NCBI GenBank assembly: GCA_026005175.1
Contig: BPKO01000005.1
Coordinates: 62,001-126,000, forward strand
Reading direction: 5' to 3'
Source of the DNA: Candidatus Tectimicrobiota bacterium
GTDB taxonomy: Bacteria > Tectomicrobia > Entotheonellia > Entotheonellales > Entotheonellaceae
DNA length: 64,000 nucleotides
Shown: piece by piece, positions 12,339 through 64,000 of the stretch
Layout of the letters: the number at the start of each line of letters is the position of its first letter
Numbering within the stretch: the first letter of the stretch is position 1
Translations under genes and position numbers: made by a program
The notes under the pieces: model-generated
The model's database searches: none
What the model was told of the DNA's origin: nothing
The model's input: the letters and a program-made list of their open reading frames with translations, nothing else

Positions 12339-13529
12339 TCAAGTACTGGCCGCGGCGGGTTCTGGGGCGCGCAGCCCGCAGAACGCCTCGTAGTCGATGA
12401 GCTCGGTGATGGTGGGGTTATCCCCGCACAGGGCGCAGGCCGGATCGCGGCGGATGCGCACCTCGCGGAAGCGCATGCTCAGCGCGTCGTACATGAGCAG
12501 GCGTCCCACCAGCGGTTCCCCCTTGCCGATGATCAGCTTGATGGTCTCCGTGGCCTGAATCAGCCCAATGATCCCGGGCAAAACTCCCAGGACACCGGCT
12601 TCCCCTCACGAAGGCACCATGCCGGGCGGCGGCGGCGTGGGGAAGAGGCAGCGGTAGCACGGCCCTTCGTGGGGCTTAAAAACGCTCGCCTGCCCCTCGA
12701 ACTGAAAGATGCTGCCGTGCACCACCGGCTTGCCCAGCAGCACGGCGGCATCGTTGACCAGGTAGCGGGTCGGGAAGTTGTCGCAGCCATCGACGATGAT
12801 GTCGTAGTCCTGGAAGATGGCCATCACGTTGTCCGCCGTCAGGCGCTCGGGATACTGGCGCACCTGCACGTCGGGGTTGAGGGCGTTGATGGCGATGCGC
12901 GCCGACTCGGTCTTGGGCATGCCGACGCGGTCGGTGGTGTGCAGCACCTGCCGCTGCAGGTTGGAGATCTCCACGGCGTCGGCATCCACGATGCCCAGCG
13001 TGCCCACGCCGGCCGCAGCCAGGTAGAGCGCCGCCGGCGAGCCCAGGCCGCCGGCTCCCACCAGCAGCACTTTGGCATCAAGCAGCTTGCTCTGCCCCTT
13101 CTCGCCGATTTCGTTGAGCAGGAAGTGGCGGCTGTAGCGCTCGAGCTGCTCGGGGGTGAACTGGCGGTCGCGCACCACCGGATACCCCGACTCCTTCCAG
13201 CGCGTGATGCCGCCGGCCATCGAATAGACGCGCTGGTAGCCCATCTCGCGCAGGGCCTTGGCGGCCAGCAGCGAGCGTGCCCCGCCGGCGCAGTAAACGA
13301 CGATTTCCTTGTCCGGGTCGGGGATCTTGCTAGTCACCTGGAACTCGAGAAAGCCGCGCGGGATGGAGATGGCGCCCTCGATGTAACCACTGCGCACCTC
13401 GTCCTTTTCCCGCACGTCGAGCAGGATAAAGTCCTCGCCGCGCTGGCGGCGTTCGGCCACTTCCTCAACCGTCAGCTCCGGCACCTCGCGCCGGGCCTCC
13501 TCGAGGAAGTCCTGAGGTCTCTTGGCCAT
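12339..13529 (-). CDS. moeB: Rhodanese-ThiF/MoeB fusion with selenocysteine codon
   Basis: A 396-residue protein if TGA at 12608-12606 is read as Sec308. The N-terminal rhodanese domain (1-115) has active Cys80 in VVYCAGGARS. The ThiF/MoeB adenylation domain follows, with GAGGLGS at 158-164, a zinc site C291/C294 and C364/C367, and MVPS-Sec-GEAGVLGV where homologues have PSCAEAGVLG. In ThiF-type enzymes that Cys (Cys184 in E. coli ThiF) is the sulfur/acyl-transfer residue. It should adenylate and sulfurate a ThiS/MoaD-like carrier. The domain order is the reverse of MoeZ. The start ATG follows GAGGAGG. The frame is unbroken on both sides of the TGA. A plain annotator would split it in two. 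Confidence 0.85.
12572..12592 (-). promoter_or_regulatory. SECIS-like hairpin in the moeB-like mRNA
   Basis: In the mRNA, 20 nt after the UGA, a 7-bp stem (12592-12586 with 12578-12572, one G-U pair) closes a 7-nt loop AGUUUUG with G at loop position 2. Distance, stem and loop fit the published bacterial SECIS consensus (apical loop 16-37 nt after UGA, G among the first two loop bases). Confidence 0.7.
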
Positions 13530-13588
13530 AGACACCTCCTCTGCTTGCGTTGCCGCCTGACTCGGACGCCGAGCCAGGGTACTGTGGA

Positions 13589-13617
13589 ACACTACGGGTT
13601 CTGCTAAAAAATATCAA
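13589..13617 (-). promoter_or_regulatory. Candidate promoter of the moeB-like gene
   Basis: On the minus strand TTGATA (13617-13612) and TAGTGT (13594-13589) are spaced by 17 bp, 60 bp before the start codon. Confidence 0.35.
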
Positions 13618-22002: not shown

Positions 22003-22346
22003 TAGTCGATCTCTAACCGCAGGCCCGGCAGCAGGCGTTCGAAATTCTTCAGTGACTTCTGCTGCCACGGGAATTCGCTGCTGCCCTTGATCACCACCTG
22101 GCTGACGCGGTGCTGGCGAACCCGGAGGACAAATTTGGACAGGGTATTGATCCCGGAGCTGTTGAGGAACCGCAACCGGCGGAGGTCAACGACCAAGGTG
22201 AGGGGTTTCGCATCGGCGGCTGCGAGCAACAGGTGCAAGATCGGGGCGTATTCTTCCATACCGCGCAGGCGAAACGACCCCTGACAGGTCACCGTGGCAG
22301 AGTCCGGATCGTAGCGAACGACATACTCTTCATTGGCGATTTCCAT
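22002..22346 (-). CDS. STAS-domain anti-sigma-factor-antagonist-like protein
   Basis: A 114-residue single STAS domain. The phospho-acceptor region LVVDLRRLRFLNSSGINTL (residues about 51-69) contains the SSG motif where SpoIIAA-like proteins are phosphorylated. The family resembles the cyanobacterial slr1659-type regulators. It would be phosphorylated by the ATP-binding protein encoded upstream and dephosphorylated by the SpoIIE-type phosphatase. Its stop overlaps the cyclase start by one base, so the two are translationally coupled. Confidence 0.85.
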   Translation of the reverse strand: MEIANEEYVVRYDPDSATVTCQGSFRLRGMEEYAPILHLLLAAADAKPLTLVVDLRRLRFLNSSGINTLSKFVLRVRQHRVSQVVIKGSSEFPWQQKSLKNFERLLPGLRLEID

Positions 22347-22392
22347 AAGCCCATCCTTACTGTGATTCCAACGGCATGGCCACCTCCAAGGC

Positions 22393-22945
22393 TCATACCG
22401 ACAGGCAAACCATGGTGGTAACGGTCATGACCCTCGGCATCCTTGGCAAGGGATTCGAATTTCCAAGCCAGACTGGCGTTGTAATCGTGAAGCATGGTGA
22501 TGTATCCCAGACCAGAATCTGCGGTGCTGTCTGCTTCGGCATGGCGCGTGAGCTGTTCCATGTAGAGCTTATCGATATCCTCGCTCAGTAGGCGCCGAAC
22601 AAAATCTTGAAACGCTGCAGCCTCCCGCGAGGCGATGCTGTTCGTCACATAGAGGCTGATACTGTCGACTTCCAGGTACATATCGATACTGATAGCATAT
22701 TTTGGCGAAGCATAGCTGAATTTCATGGCGTTTTCCAGCAGTTCGTTGGCAATATAGCTGATGGCGCTCTTGATCTCGGCCTGGTGCTCGATGGAATCGC
22801 TGTCATCTCCTGGGAAAAACGTACTGAGGTAATCGGCGAGAAAATCGGCGGAAAGGCCATTGTTGCGCCAGCGCTGCTGAATGGGAAGGGAGGTGGGGGA
22901 AAATTTGATTTTCAGGTATTCGCAACTTTCTGAGGTTTTTTTCAA
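22393..22945 (-). CDS. ATP-binding protein of slr1658 type (switch kinase), frameshift at end
   Basis: The N-box ISYIANELLENAMKFSYAS (about 65-83) and the later DSGLGYITMLHDYNAS show a GHKL-like ATP-binding fold as in the slr1658/slr1659 pair. This is an atypical anti-sigma-factor/kinase partner of STAS proteins. An extra base near 22428 shifts the frame; corrected, the protein ends MTVTTMVCLSV with a TGA at 22395-22393, before the STAS gene. Left uncorrected, it overruns the STAS start to 22289. The base composition is lower in GC than the window average. It starts 38 bp after the phosphatase gene. Confidence 0.75.
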
Positions 22946-22983
22946 CGTAGTTCCCGATCACGTGTGCCATAGGCCGCCTCTTT

Positions 22984-24576
22984 CTACTTGATGCGCTTTA
23001 TCACAACCAGCGTGATGTCGTCGTAGACATGCTGGCTCCCAATGTGCCGCTGCAGGTCGGCGATCACCGCTGCCTTGATAGCTTCGGCTGCCTGCGTCCA
23101 GTGCTGGCTCGCCGTGCAGCACAGCCGCTCTAAGCCGTAGTGCTCTCCCCGCTTCGTTTTCGGCTTCGGTAATGCCGTCAGTGTACAGCACCACGCCGTC
23201 GCCGGGCTGGAGGGCTACCGTGGTCTGCCCGACGAAGGTGGCGATATCGTCGACGAGGGCGATGGGGAAGCCGAGGTCAACCGTGTCCACCCGTTCTACC
23301 GTGCCATTGCGGCGGATCACGAGCATTTCCTCGTGCTGGCCGCTAAGGTGCACGTATCCTGCGGCGTAGTCAAGCAGCGATAGGGTGAGATTCTTATCTG
23401 TGCCCATGCGTTGCACATTGCCGTATAGGGCGCGGTTCACGGCATCCAGAAACCGCACCGGGTCGGTTTCGCCCGATGGTCAGCAGGGCACGCACCACCG
23501 CCTGCGTCATGACCATGACCACCCCGCTTTCCAGGCCGTGGCCGGTAACGTCTCCGATGCCGATTTTGATCTGGCCGTTGTGCTGCAGCACGTCGTAGTA
23601 GTCTCCGCCCACCTCGTCGGCTGGCTCCATATAGCAAGCGATGTCCAGCTCCTCGATCTGCTTCAGCTCCTCCTCGGTGGGCAGAAGCATACGCTGGATT
23701 TTACGGGTCACGTCCAATTCGGCACCCAGCCGCATATTTTCCGCCTTGAGTTGTTCGTTTAAAGAGCTGATCTCGGCATTGGCCTGGGCCAGCTGCTCGG
23801 TGCGCTCGGCCACCCGCGATTCCAGGGTGCGGTTGGCTTCCTCAAGTTGTGTATTGCTGTAACGTAACTCCTCGAACAGCCGCTTAATGGCGTCGCGCAT
23901 GGCGTTGAGGTCGCGTGCCAGCAGGCCGATTTCATCGCGGCTGCTGGTGTCAATCTCGGCTTCCAGATCGCCGCTTGCCAAGCGGGAGGCCGACTGCTGG
24001 AGCTGCGACAGCGGACGTGCGATGGCGCGGCGGGTGATCAGCATCGAAGTCAGGAAAATCGCTACAATGAGCAGGACGGTCAGCGCCATGATGCCACCGA
24101 TGTTGAGCCAGAGTTCGTTCTGGATACTGGCGCGGGAAACGGCAAAGCGAATCGTCCCAACTTGGTTTCCCTCAAACAGAATCGGCGCCGTTTTGGTCAG
24201 GAATTTCGACGATTGCACAAAGTACTCAAAATCCTTGCCTCGAAATTTTGGGCGGGTTTTGGTGGTAATGACCGTGTTTTCCCCACCTCACGTCGGCGTA
24301 TACCAGGGCGTTGTCTAAAAACAATGCCTCGATGTAATCTCGCACGATGTCATTGTCCAGATTCCACAGCGGGGTAGGTAGACCGATCTGCGAGAGCGCC
24401 ACGATACCATCAAGCTTTTTTCGGAGCTCTGCCTCGAGCCGCGTCACATTCAAAAAGATCGCAATGGCAGCGAACACGAACAAAATGAAGGTGACGATAC
24501 CAACGAACCCGTAGCTAAACCGCCGGCTAATACTGTGAACCTTTGAGACAGGTTGGTCGCTGTCCCCTTTGATCAT
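22984..24576 (-). CDS. Membrane-bound SpoIIE-type serine phosphatase, three frameshifts
   Basis: Reassembled over small shifts near 24285, 23474 and 23145, this is one protein of about 530 residues. TM1 is near 22-45 (GIVTFILFVFAAIAIFL). A periplasmic sensor with the signature LPTPLWNLDNDIVRDYIEAL follows. TM2 (GGIMALTVLLIVAIFLTS), a HAMP domain (ARPLSQLQQSASRLASGDLE), a coiled coil and the PP2C/SpoIIE catalytic domain come next. The catalytic domain has DEVGGDYYDVL, IGIGDVTGHGLESGVVM, VLYTDGITEAENEAG and DDITLVVIKRIK at the end. It should dephosphorylate the STAS protein in response to a periplasmic signal. The binding protein is encoded 15 bp upstream. Confidence 0.85.
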
Positions 24577-57240: not shown

Positions 57241-58047
57241 ATGGGCGACGACCCGGTACTGACCCGCTTTCGCCAGCAGTACGGCGCCTGGCTGGCCGCC
57301 GCGCGGCCCTTGCTGGAAGCCGGCGACTTCAAGCGGGCCTTTGCCACTTACCCCTTCTTGCGCTACGCCGACGCGCCCTGGACACCGCTGCGGCGCCCGC
57401 TAGCCCAAAGCACGCTGGCCCTGGTGACCACGGGCGGCCTGTACCTCCAGGGGCAGCAGCCGCCCTTTAACGCGGCGCACATCGAGGGAGATACTTCCTA
57501 CCGGGTGTTTTCCAGCCGCGTGTCGCCAGCGACGCTGGCCATTGCCCATACCCACTTCCCGCATCACTTCGCCGAGCAAGACCTCAATACCATTTTGCCG
57601 CTGGCGCATTTGCATCGCTTCGCCAGTGACGGTATTATCGGGTGTGTGGCAGAAAGCGTCTACAGCATTACCGGGTACCTCACCGATGTGGCGACCTTTG
57701 CGGCGAGTTCGGCCCGTGCCATCGCCGCGCACATGGTGGCAAGCGGGGTAGAGGCAGCCCTCATCGTGCCGGTTTGACCCGTCTGCCACCAGTCCGGTGG
57801 ACTGCTGGCGCGCGTTATTGAAGCGGCAGGAATCGCCACGGTGGTCCTGGGGCAGACGCCCCACATCCTCGAGCAGGTGCGGCCGCCGCGCGCCGTGGTG
57901 ACCGCCTTTCCACGCGGGGCCACGGTGGGCGCGCCGGGCAATGCCGAGCAGCAGCGCCAGGTGCTGCTCGACGCCCTGGCGGTGCTCGAAGAAGCCGAGA
58001 CGCCCGGGGTGCTGTACGTACTGCCGTACCGCTGGGAGGAGCCATAG
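57241..58047 (+). CDS. GrdB/PrdB-like selenoprotein with UxxC motif
   Basis: A 268-residue protein if TGA at 57775-57777 is Sec179. Upstream of it lie PWTPLRRPLAQSTLALVTTG, GDTSYR and the GCVAESVYSITG segment. The motif is VPV-Sec-PVCHQSGGLLARVI, i.e. U-x-x-C-H, as in the selenoprotein-B family of glycine/betaine/sarcosine/D-proline reductases. Then come GIATVVLGQTP, VRPPRAVVTAFPRGATVGAPG and a terminal helix. The frame is open on both sides of the TGA, and the downstream half is as conserved-looking as the upstream half. Its reductive role and partner are unknown; no GrdA, GrdC or PrdA gene is nearby. GAGGAG precedes the ATG. Confidence 0.85.
57785..57809 (+). promoter_or_regulatory. SECIS-like hairpin in the GrdB/PrdB-like gene
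   Basis: CAGTCC (57790-57795) and GGACTG (57799-57804) form a perfect 6-bp stem with triloop GGU. A further 4-bp GCCA/TGGC stem lies beyond one mismatch. The loop starts 18 nt after the UGA and begins with G, which fits the bacterial SECIS consensus. Confidence 0.72.
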
Positions 58048-60276: not shown

Positions 60277-62978
<2,702 letters not shown>

Positions 62979-62979
62979 C

Positions 62980-63009
62980 TTGTGCCGGCAAGCACCGCTG
63001 GCCTATAAT
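62980..63009 (+). promoter_or_regulatory. Candidate promoter of the DsbA-like selenoprotein gene
   Basis: A perfect TATAAT (63004-63009) lies 18 bp after TTGTGC (62980-62985), 20 bp before the ATG and immediately after the ligA stop. Confidence 0.45.
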
Positions 63010-63028
63010 CTGGCCGGGAGGAGAGGCC

Positions 63029-63646
63029 ATGAGCACGCCCGTACGCATTGTGGCGTTTTCTGATTACCTGTGACCCTGGTGCTACCCGGCGGCGGTTCGC
63101 CTCCAGCGGTTGCACCAGCGCTACGGCGCGCGTATCCAGCTCGAGCACCGCGCCTTTCCGCTGCGCCCCCAGCCCGACGCCTCGGTGAAGTTTCAGGGGA
63201 CGTACCGCGAGGCGGCGTGGCAGCGCGCGGCGGCCCTGGCGGCGGCAGACGGGATCCGGTGGCGCATGTGGACTCGCGACGATTTTCCCCAGTGGAGCCT
63301 GCCGGCTCTGGAAGCGGCCAAGTGCGCGGCGCTTCAGGGGGAAGCGGCCTTTGCCGACATGAACCTGCGGCTGTTTCGGGGCTTTTTCGAGCAGGGGGTT
63401 AACATCGCCGAGCCCGAAGAGATCCTGACGCTGGCGCGGGAGGCGCCCTTGGATTACCCGCGCTTTGTCGACGACTTCCTGAGCGGCGGCATGCGCCAAG
63501 AGGTGCTGCGCGACTACGAAGAGGCGCTCACCCGCTACGCCGTGCACGCCATCCCCACCGTGGTCTTTGCCGAGCGCGAATGGGTGGTGGGGGCGGTGCC
63601 CTTGGCCAAGTACGAAGAGGTGCTGGCCAAGTTCGGCGTCACGTGA
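63029..63646 (+). CDS. DsbA/FrnE-family thioredoxin-fold selenoprotein (UPWC)
   Basis: A 205-residue DsbA-like protein if TGA at 63071-63073 is Sec15. The N-terminus reads MSTPVRIVAFSDYL-Sec-PWCYPAAVRL, i.e. SDYxCPWC with the first, attacking Cys as Sec. The helical insertion (QGTYREAAWQRAAALAAADG, FAKMNLRL-like) and the cis-Pro segment VHAIPTVVFAEREWVVGAV belong to the DsbA/2-hydroxychromene-2-carboxylate isomerase/FrnE group. No signal peptide is visible, so it is probably a cytoplasmic thiol-disulfide oxidoreductase. GGAGGAGAG precedes the ATG. Without Sec decoding the first start would be past the active site. Confidence 0.87.
63076..63118 (+). promoter_or_regulatory. SECIS-like nested hairpin in the DsbA-like gene
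   Basis: Perfect outer arms CTGGTGC (63076-63082) and GCACCAG (63112-63118) enclose an inner stem GGCG/CGCC (63091-63094, 63098-63101) extended by GG/CC beyond one mismatch, with triloop GUU. The apical loop begins 21 nt after the UGA and starts with G. Confidence 0.7.
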
Positions 63647-63655
63647 GGGAACACG

Positions 63656-64000
63656 ATGACCCAACCGCAGTTGCGCCGGGCCCTGGCCATTTTGCAGCGC
63701 GAGGTGCCGCGGTGGAAGGTGCCGGTGGTGAGCCTGATGGCGCAGGAAAAGCGCGACCCGTACCGCGTCCTGATCGCCACGCTGCTGAGCCTGCGCACCC
63801 AGGACCAGACCACGGCGGCGGCGGCCGAGCGGCTCTTTGCCCTGGCGGCGACGCCGCAGGCGATGTGCCAGCTGGACGCCGACACCATCGCCCGGGCGAT
63901 TTACCCGGTGGGCTTTTACCGCACTAAGGCGCAGCAGATCCTGGCCATCTCGCAGCGGCTGGTGGCGGAATTTGGCGGGCGGGTGCCCGACGACCTCGAC
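63656..64000 (+). CDS. nth: Endonuclease III (partial, runs off the window)
   Basis: The first 115 residues are present: PYRVLIATLLSLRTQDQTTAAAAERLF is the typical Nth helix region, and the DNA-glycosylase HhH motif and the four-Cys iron-sulfur cluster should follow beyond the edge. It excises oxidised pyrimidines. The ATG at 63656 is 9 bp after the selenoprotein stop, so the two genes share a transcript. Confidence 0.85.
   Translation, partial: MTQPQLRRALAILQREVPRWKVPVVSLMAQEKRDPYRVLIATLLSLRTQDQTTAAAAERLFALAATPQAMCQLDADTIARAIYPVGFYRTKAQQILAISQRLVAEFGGRVPDDLD

Follow-up and report, generated by a model that had tools for sequence, protein, structure and literature searches.

The locus at the centre of this analysis raises the question of whether a TGA codon near the start of a reading frame ends translation or encodes selenocysteine (Sec). 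The frame was found in a stretch of DNA of 64,000 nucleotides, referred to here as the window. It begins with ATG at 63029, contains an internal TGA as codon 15 (63071-63073) and ends with a terminal TGA at 63644-63646. Its read-through product, designated P0001, has 205 residues and carries DYL-U-PWC (U, Sec) at residues 12-18. A sequence-only reading of the window had noticed SDYL-TGA-PWC at the CPWC position of DsbA/FrnE proteins. The frame, the alignment and a Pfam match all agree with this placement; the match is to the DSBA domain (PF01323), which spans residues 7-199, i.e., crosses the TGA (4.9e-20, 72.6 bits against a cut-off of 25.6). The features of the locus are as follows.

63029-63646, plus strand: predicted gene for a DsbA/FrnE-like selenoprotein, 205 residues if the TGA is read through (translation, Pfam DSBA, AlphaFold model, FrnE-like fold)
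63071-63073, plus strand: in-frame TGA, predicted Sec15 of the UPWC active site (recurrence of TGA at the Cys column of homologues)
63080-63082, plus strand: TGC, predicted resolving Cys18 of UPWC (translation, alignment)
63088-63104, plus strand: SECIS-like apical hairpin with loop GTT at 63095-63097, inside a longer fold at 63076-63118 (folding, group comparison with Cys homologues)
63004-63009, plus strand: TATAAT, a possible -10 element lacking a convincing -35 (read directly)
63016-63028, plus strand: purine-rich ribosome-binding site GGGAGGAGAGGCC preceding the ATG (read directly)
63656-64000, plus strand: nth (endonuclease III), the next gene, running beyond the window (named by reading of the sequence)

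In the reading that we prefer, with a probability of about 0.95, 63029-63646 is predicted to encode a cytoplasmic-type, FrnE/HCCA-isomerase-like thiol-redox protein of the DsbA family with Sec as the nucleophilic first active-site residue; judged from sequence, the TGA at 63071-63073 almost certainly encodes this Sec. The explanation is built on the reading frame, the recurrence of TGA at the Cys column, the Sec machinery, homology and the predicted fold; from these we infer actual Sec insertion, a function for the hairpin, a reductase-type activity and a cytoplasmic location.

The recurrence of the TGA was assessed by searching 386 genomes with P0001, which gave 13 matches at E <= 1e-15 in 12 genomes. 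The sequence-only reading had proposed checking homologues for Cys or Sec at residue 15, and both were found. Of the 12 matches of the P0001 type, nine are UPWC genes whose Cys column holds TGA (G000, which is the window's own genome, G001, G004, G028, G035, G052, G089, G141 and G278), and three have Cys there (G032, G040 and G215); the thirteenth match is a CYVUPY paralogue in G052. The eight TGA relatives are 32-61% identical to P0001, and the frame continues past the TGA at the UPWC loci, of which the one in G035 is truncated to 67 residues by the end of its contig. Three of the nine TGA loci (G000, G001 and G004) come from the window's own phylum, represented by five genomes in the set. 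In a named collection from other phyla, TGC or TGT occupies the column in 61 of 61 loci, a set gathered in part with a search pattern that includes DYLCPWCY, which biases it to Cys, so that it gives no estimate of Sec frequency. Likewise, Cys18 is invariant in an alignment of 32 rows, many of which were found by a pattern containing Cys18. A quick version of the tree requires three label changes for the Sec rows, which may have a single origin.

These data bear on the possibility that the TGA is a real stop, followed by a downstream restart that gives a protein of at most 178 residues, or that the locus is a pseudogene. An open reading frame for a restart is present, since the longest table-11 ORF in the P0001 frame without read-through is 63110-63646, with a TTG start; however, its product would have neither strand 1 nor any of the UPWC active site. 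Homologues with a stop and restart had been named beforehand as evidence that would count against Sec; instead, the nine loci keep the frame across the TGA. In addition, G000 and G001 differ over the first 60 codons at 13, 11 and 34 sites in codon positions 1, 2 and 3, respectively, and over the 14 codons before the TGA at 3, 4 and 8 sites, a pattern indicating that the sequence is translated on both sides of the TGA. We therefore regard a stop, with or without restart, as improbable. An error in sequencing or assembly that turned TGC or TGT into TGA would be in keeping with the Cys found at this column in many homologues, but the same TGA occurs in nine separate genomes, nearly all with SelA, which makes such an error very improbable.

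Reading of the TGA as Sec requires a dedicated machinery, whose components were found in the window's own genome (77% complete, 14 contigs). SelA (637.8 bits), SelB (391.5 bits), SelD (378.9 bits) and tRNA-Sec (76.5 bits) all score over their cut-offs, and ARAGORN assigned the tRNA the anticodon TCA (UCA). Decoding of TGA as some other amino acid, by suppression or a changed code, for which we found no supporting point, is hardly credible given this tRNA-Sec and the use of TGA to terminate genes here, both in ligA, which ends at 62978 upstream of the selenoprotein gene, and in the selenoprotein gene itself. Among the 11 other genomes with the TGA form or the paralogue, SelA matches were detected in ten, nine of them over the cut-off and the one in G001 a fragment; no SelA match was found in G035, a genome that is 86% complete and whose UPWC gene is the contig-edge fragment. 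Among six genomes with Cys forms taken for comparison, SelA scored over the cut-off in two, matched weakly in two and gave no match in two; thus, SelA alone does not separate Sec from Cys carriers. The selenoprotein interpretation is supported by the recurrent TGA and the Sec machinery together, along with the loss of the active site that a restart would entail. The SelD gene of the window's genome (L113, C9:120631-121554, minus strand) has one internal TGA, and this SelD is probably itself a selenoprotein.

Bacterial SECIS elements are hairpins after the UGA with a G in a small apical loop, and such a structure occurs in the window gene. A nested hairpin had been reported 21 nt downstream of the TGA, and the apical loop GTT, with G first, indeed begins at this distance. 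The 49 nt from the TGA (63071-63119) fold at -25.3 kcal/mol compared with a mean of -17.7 for dinucleotide shuffles (z -2.68). When synonymous codons were shuffled, mean z was -1.31 in 12 Sec loci versus -0.35 in 77 Cys loci (p 0.002), and within the UPWC group alone six Sec loci were more stable than 43 close Cys loci (p 0.024); the loci are related, and the p values are accordingly optimistic. Individually, four of the 12 Sec loci reached p < 0.05 in this comparison, and one (L007) ran in the opposite direction, being less stable than its own shuffles (z +1.19). A hairpin score, which was designed after the folds had been seen and is thus post hoc, separated 12 Sec from 43 Cys loci with p 4e-4 (UPWC alone, 0.009). 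The pairing, shuffle and hairpin-score tests covered 12 of the 17 TGA loci (6 of 9 UPWC and 6 of 8 UP[YF]), and one Cys locus (L094) was left out as too short. UPWC loci added later varied in folding, i.e., strong in L119 (-21.4 kcal/mol), moderate in L121 (-12.9) and weak in L120 (-6.6). RNAalifold found no common consensus structure over the 12 Sec loci. Counted in a fixed register, all four core pairs were present in three of the 12 Sec genes and three of the 77 Cys genes, a count that is uninformative because the apical loops of most UPWC and most CYVUPY genes lie 1 nt apart. Overall, the hairpin in the window gene is a probable SECIS element, backed as a trend of the group. In the proposed mechanism, UGA 15 would be decoded by SelB, Sec-tRNA(UCA) and this hairpin immediately downstream.

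The fold predicted for P0001 suggests what the Sec residue may do. The AlphaFold model has a mean pLDDT of 94, and among PDB structures it comes closest to FrnE of Deinococcus radiodurans (5cnw, E 7.9e-10, TMq 0.80), with YjbH, HCCA isomerase and kappa GST next; in sequence searches with phmmer, a YjbH-type protein, SCO1869 and FrnE were retrieved at 1e-5 to 7e-5. P0001 shares with D. radiodurans FrnE the predicted fold, a CPWC-type active site and the cytoplasmic type, and differs from it in having Sec for Cys; the two are about 22% identical in the structural alignment. The FrnE subfamily is recognized by its fold and a CP(W/F)C active site, both seen here with Sec replacing the first Cys. 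The C-terminal CXXXXC of the D. radiodurans protein is absent from the P0001 translation; according to the accessible text of PMC8945050, this motif is found in many FrnE proteins and some are without it. HCCA isomerase and kappa-class GST (3fz5, 2imd, 1r4w) have the same overall fold as P0001 (TMq 0.71-0.76) at 17-21% identity.

In the model, strand 1 already begins at residue 5, too close to the N terminus for a signal peptide to fit, and P0001 is thus predicted to lack this hallmark of periplasmic DsbA. In the same accessible text, FrnE is described as a predicted cytoplasmic member of the DsbA family, a disulfide-reductase role is proposed for the D. radiodurans form, and a D. radiodurans frnE mutant is reported to be sensitive to cadmium and diamide (PMC8945050). 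By analogy, the most likely activity of P0001 is the reduction or isomerisation of disulfides, or the reduction of other electrophiles; Sec15 would be the nucleophile and Cys18 the resolver. From its position where helix 1 begins, the selenol would attack a disulfide or another electrophile, and Cys18 would then resolve the resulting selenenylsulfide.

DsbA-like selenoproteins have been described before. As far as the available text of these sources goes, nine DsbA-like UXXC selenoproteins were listed under COG2761 from the Sargasso Sea in 2005 (PMC1088965), the family was listed again in three later papers (PMC1794560, PMC2398784, PMC5029168) and in a 2026 review (PMC13188914), and a Sec-containing FrnE was reported in algae (PMC6627142). 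The sequence-only reading had noted as known that Sec recurs at the first Cys of CxxC motifs in thioredoxin folds. The window gene encodes the DSBA domain, places its TGA at the column of the first CxxC cysteine and has Cys homologues, and its genome carries the genes for Sec synthesis and decoding; it belongs to the DsbA-like UxxC kind published since 2005. With the published "DsbA-like form 1" (UxxC, PF01323) it shares, in the available descriptions, Sec at the first UxxC position, the DSBA domain and a downstream bacterial SECIS; its placement there is by domain and motif. In contrast to form 2 (DxxUP) and DsbA 3 (UxxV) as described there, P0001 keeps a Cys three residues after Sec. The window gene adds to a published family a well-supported member with TGA relatives within its phylum and outside it. 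Standard gene calling would either start this gene past the TGA, with loss of the active site, or overlook it.

The surroundings of the gene were also compared with earlier claims. The ribosome-binding site was confirmed, GGGAGGAG being located immediately 5' of the ATG at 63029. Of the perfect -10 element claimed upstream, the TATAAT hexamer at 63004-63009 stands, but a promoter is unproven: TTGTGC, the hexamer 18 nt 5' of it, was judged a poor -35, and a promoter consensus scan of this region returned 0 sites, with no sigma-70-like site passing. As had been noted, the gene adjoins nth, which starts 10 nt past the selenoprotein stop. The order selenoprotein gene, nth and next gene is also present in the relative G001; nth was not found in the sequence stretches around the selenoprotein genes of G004, G052, G028 and G035, and its linkage is thus local to close relatives.

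Outside the window, the same genome carries another DsbA-like gene interrupted by TGA (P0004, CYV-U-PYAW, G000 C8:134633-135292; L028 1348-2007 / L123), which is more unusual than the window gene. All eight members of this paralogue group among the 386 genomes have TGA at the column and a residue other than Cys three after Sec, and seven have Cys three before it, whereas the nine UPWC genes all have Asp three before Sec and Cys three after. The one exception, L130, resembles the published form 2 (DxxUP). A TAG, possibly situated beyond the true end, is also present in two of the eight paralogue matches. Both groups occur together in five genomes (G000, G001, G052, G141 and G278). In the available descriptions, form 2 (DxxUP) and DsbA 3 (UxxV) share with the paralogue a DSBA domain, one Sec and no Cys three after it; form 2 has Asp where seven of the eight paralogues have Cys. 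A CxxU or CxxUP DsbA selenoprotein was not found in the literature searched, of which supplements and most subscription papers were outside reach. Since loss of the downstream Cys is accompanied by an upstream Cys in seven of eight members, the sequences suggest, as a tentative and still rather doubtful reading, that the genome pairs DsbA-like selenoproteins whose partner Cys has switched sides, and that in CxxU the selenenylsulfide would form from the opposite side of the helix start. The CYVUPY group could serve to test whether a resolving Cys placed on the other side of Sec can work in a DsbA fold.

The window gene had also been called the third Sec case in 64 kb. Two further frames interrupted by TGA were found in the window.

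12339-13592, minus strand: rhodanese-MoeB/ThiF frame, PS-U-GEAGVLG, with TGA at 12606-12608 (MoeB NF006444, 587.8 bits, over the cut-off)
57241-58047, plus strand: PrdB/GrdB-like frame, PV-U-PVCHQSG, with TGA at 57775-57777 (PrdB TIGR04483, 144.5 bits, below the cut-off of 300)

The TGA of the first frame falls at what we take to be a conserved Cys of MoeB. Both frames were spotted by eye, the automatic scans for Sec genes having missed them because their halves scored as separate genes. MoeB and PrdB are both listed as selenoprotein families in the available text of a review (PMC13188914), and the count of three is plausible. At 22289-23491 on the minus strand, two frames are split by a TGA near 22960; the sequence here suggests a phosphatase-type gene that has been broken, not a Sec gene.
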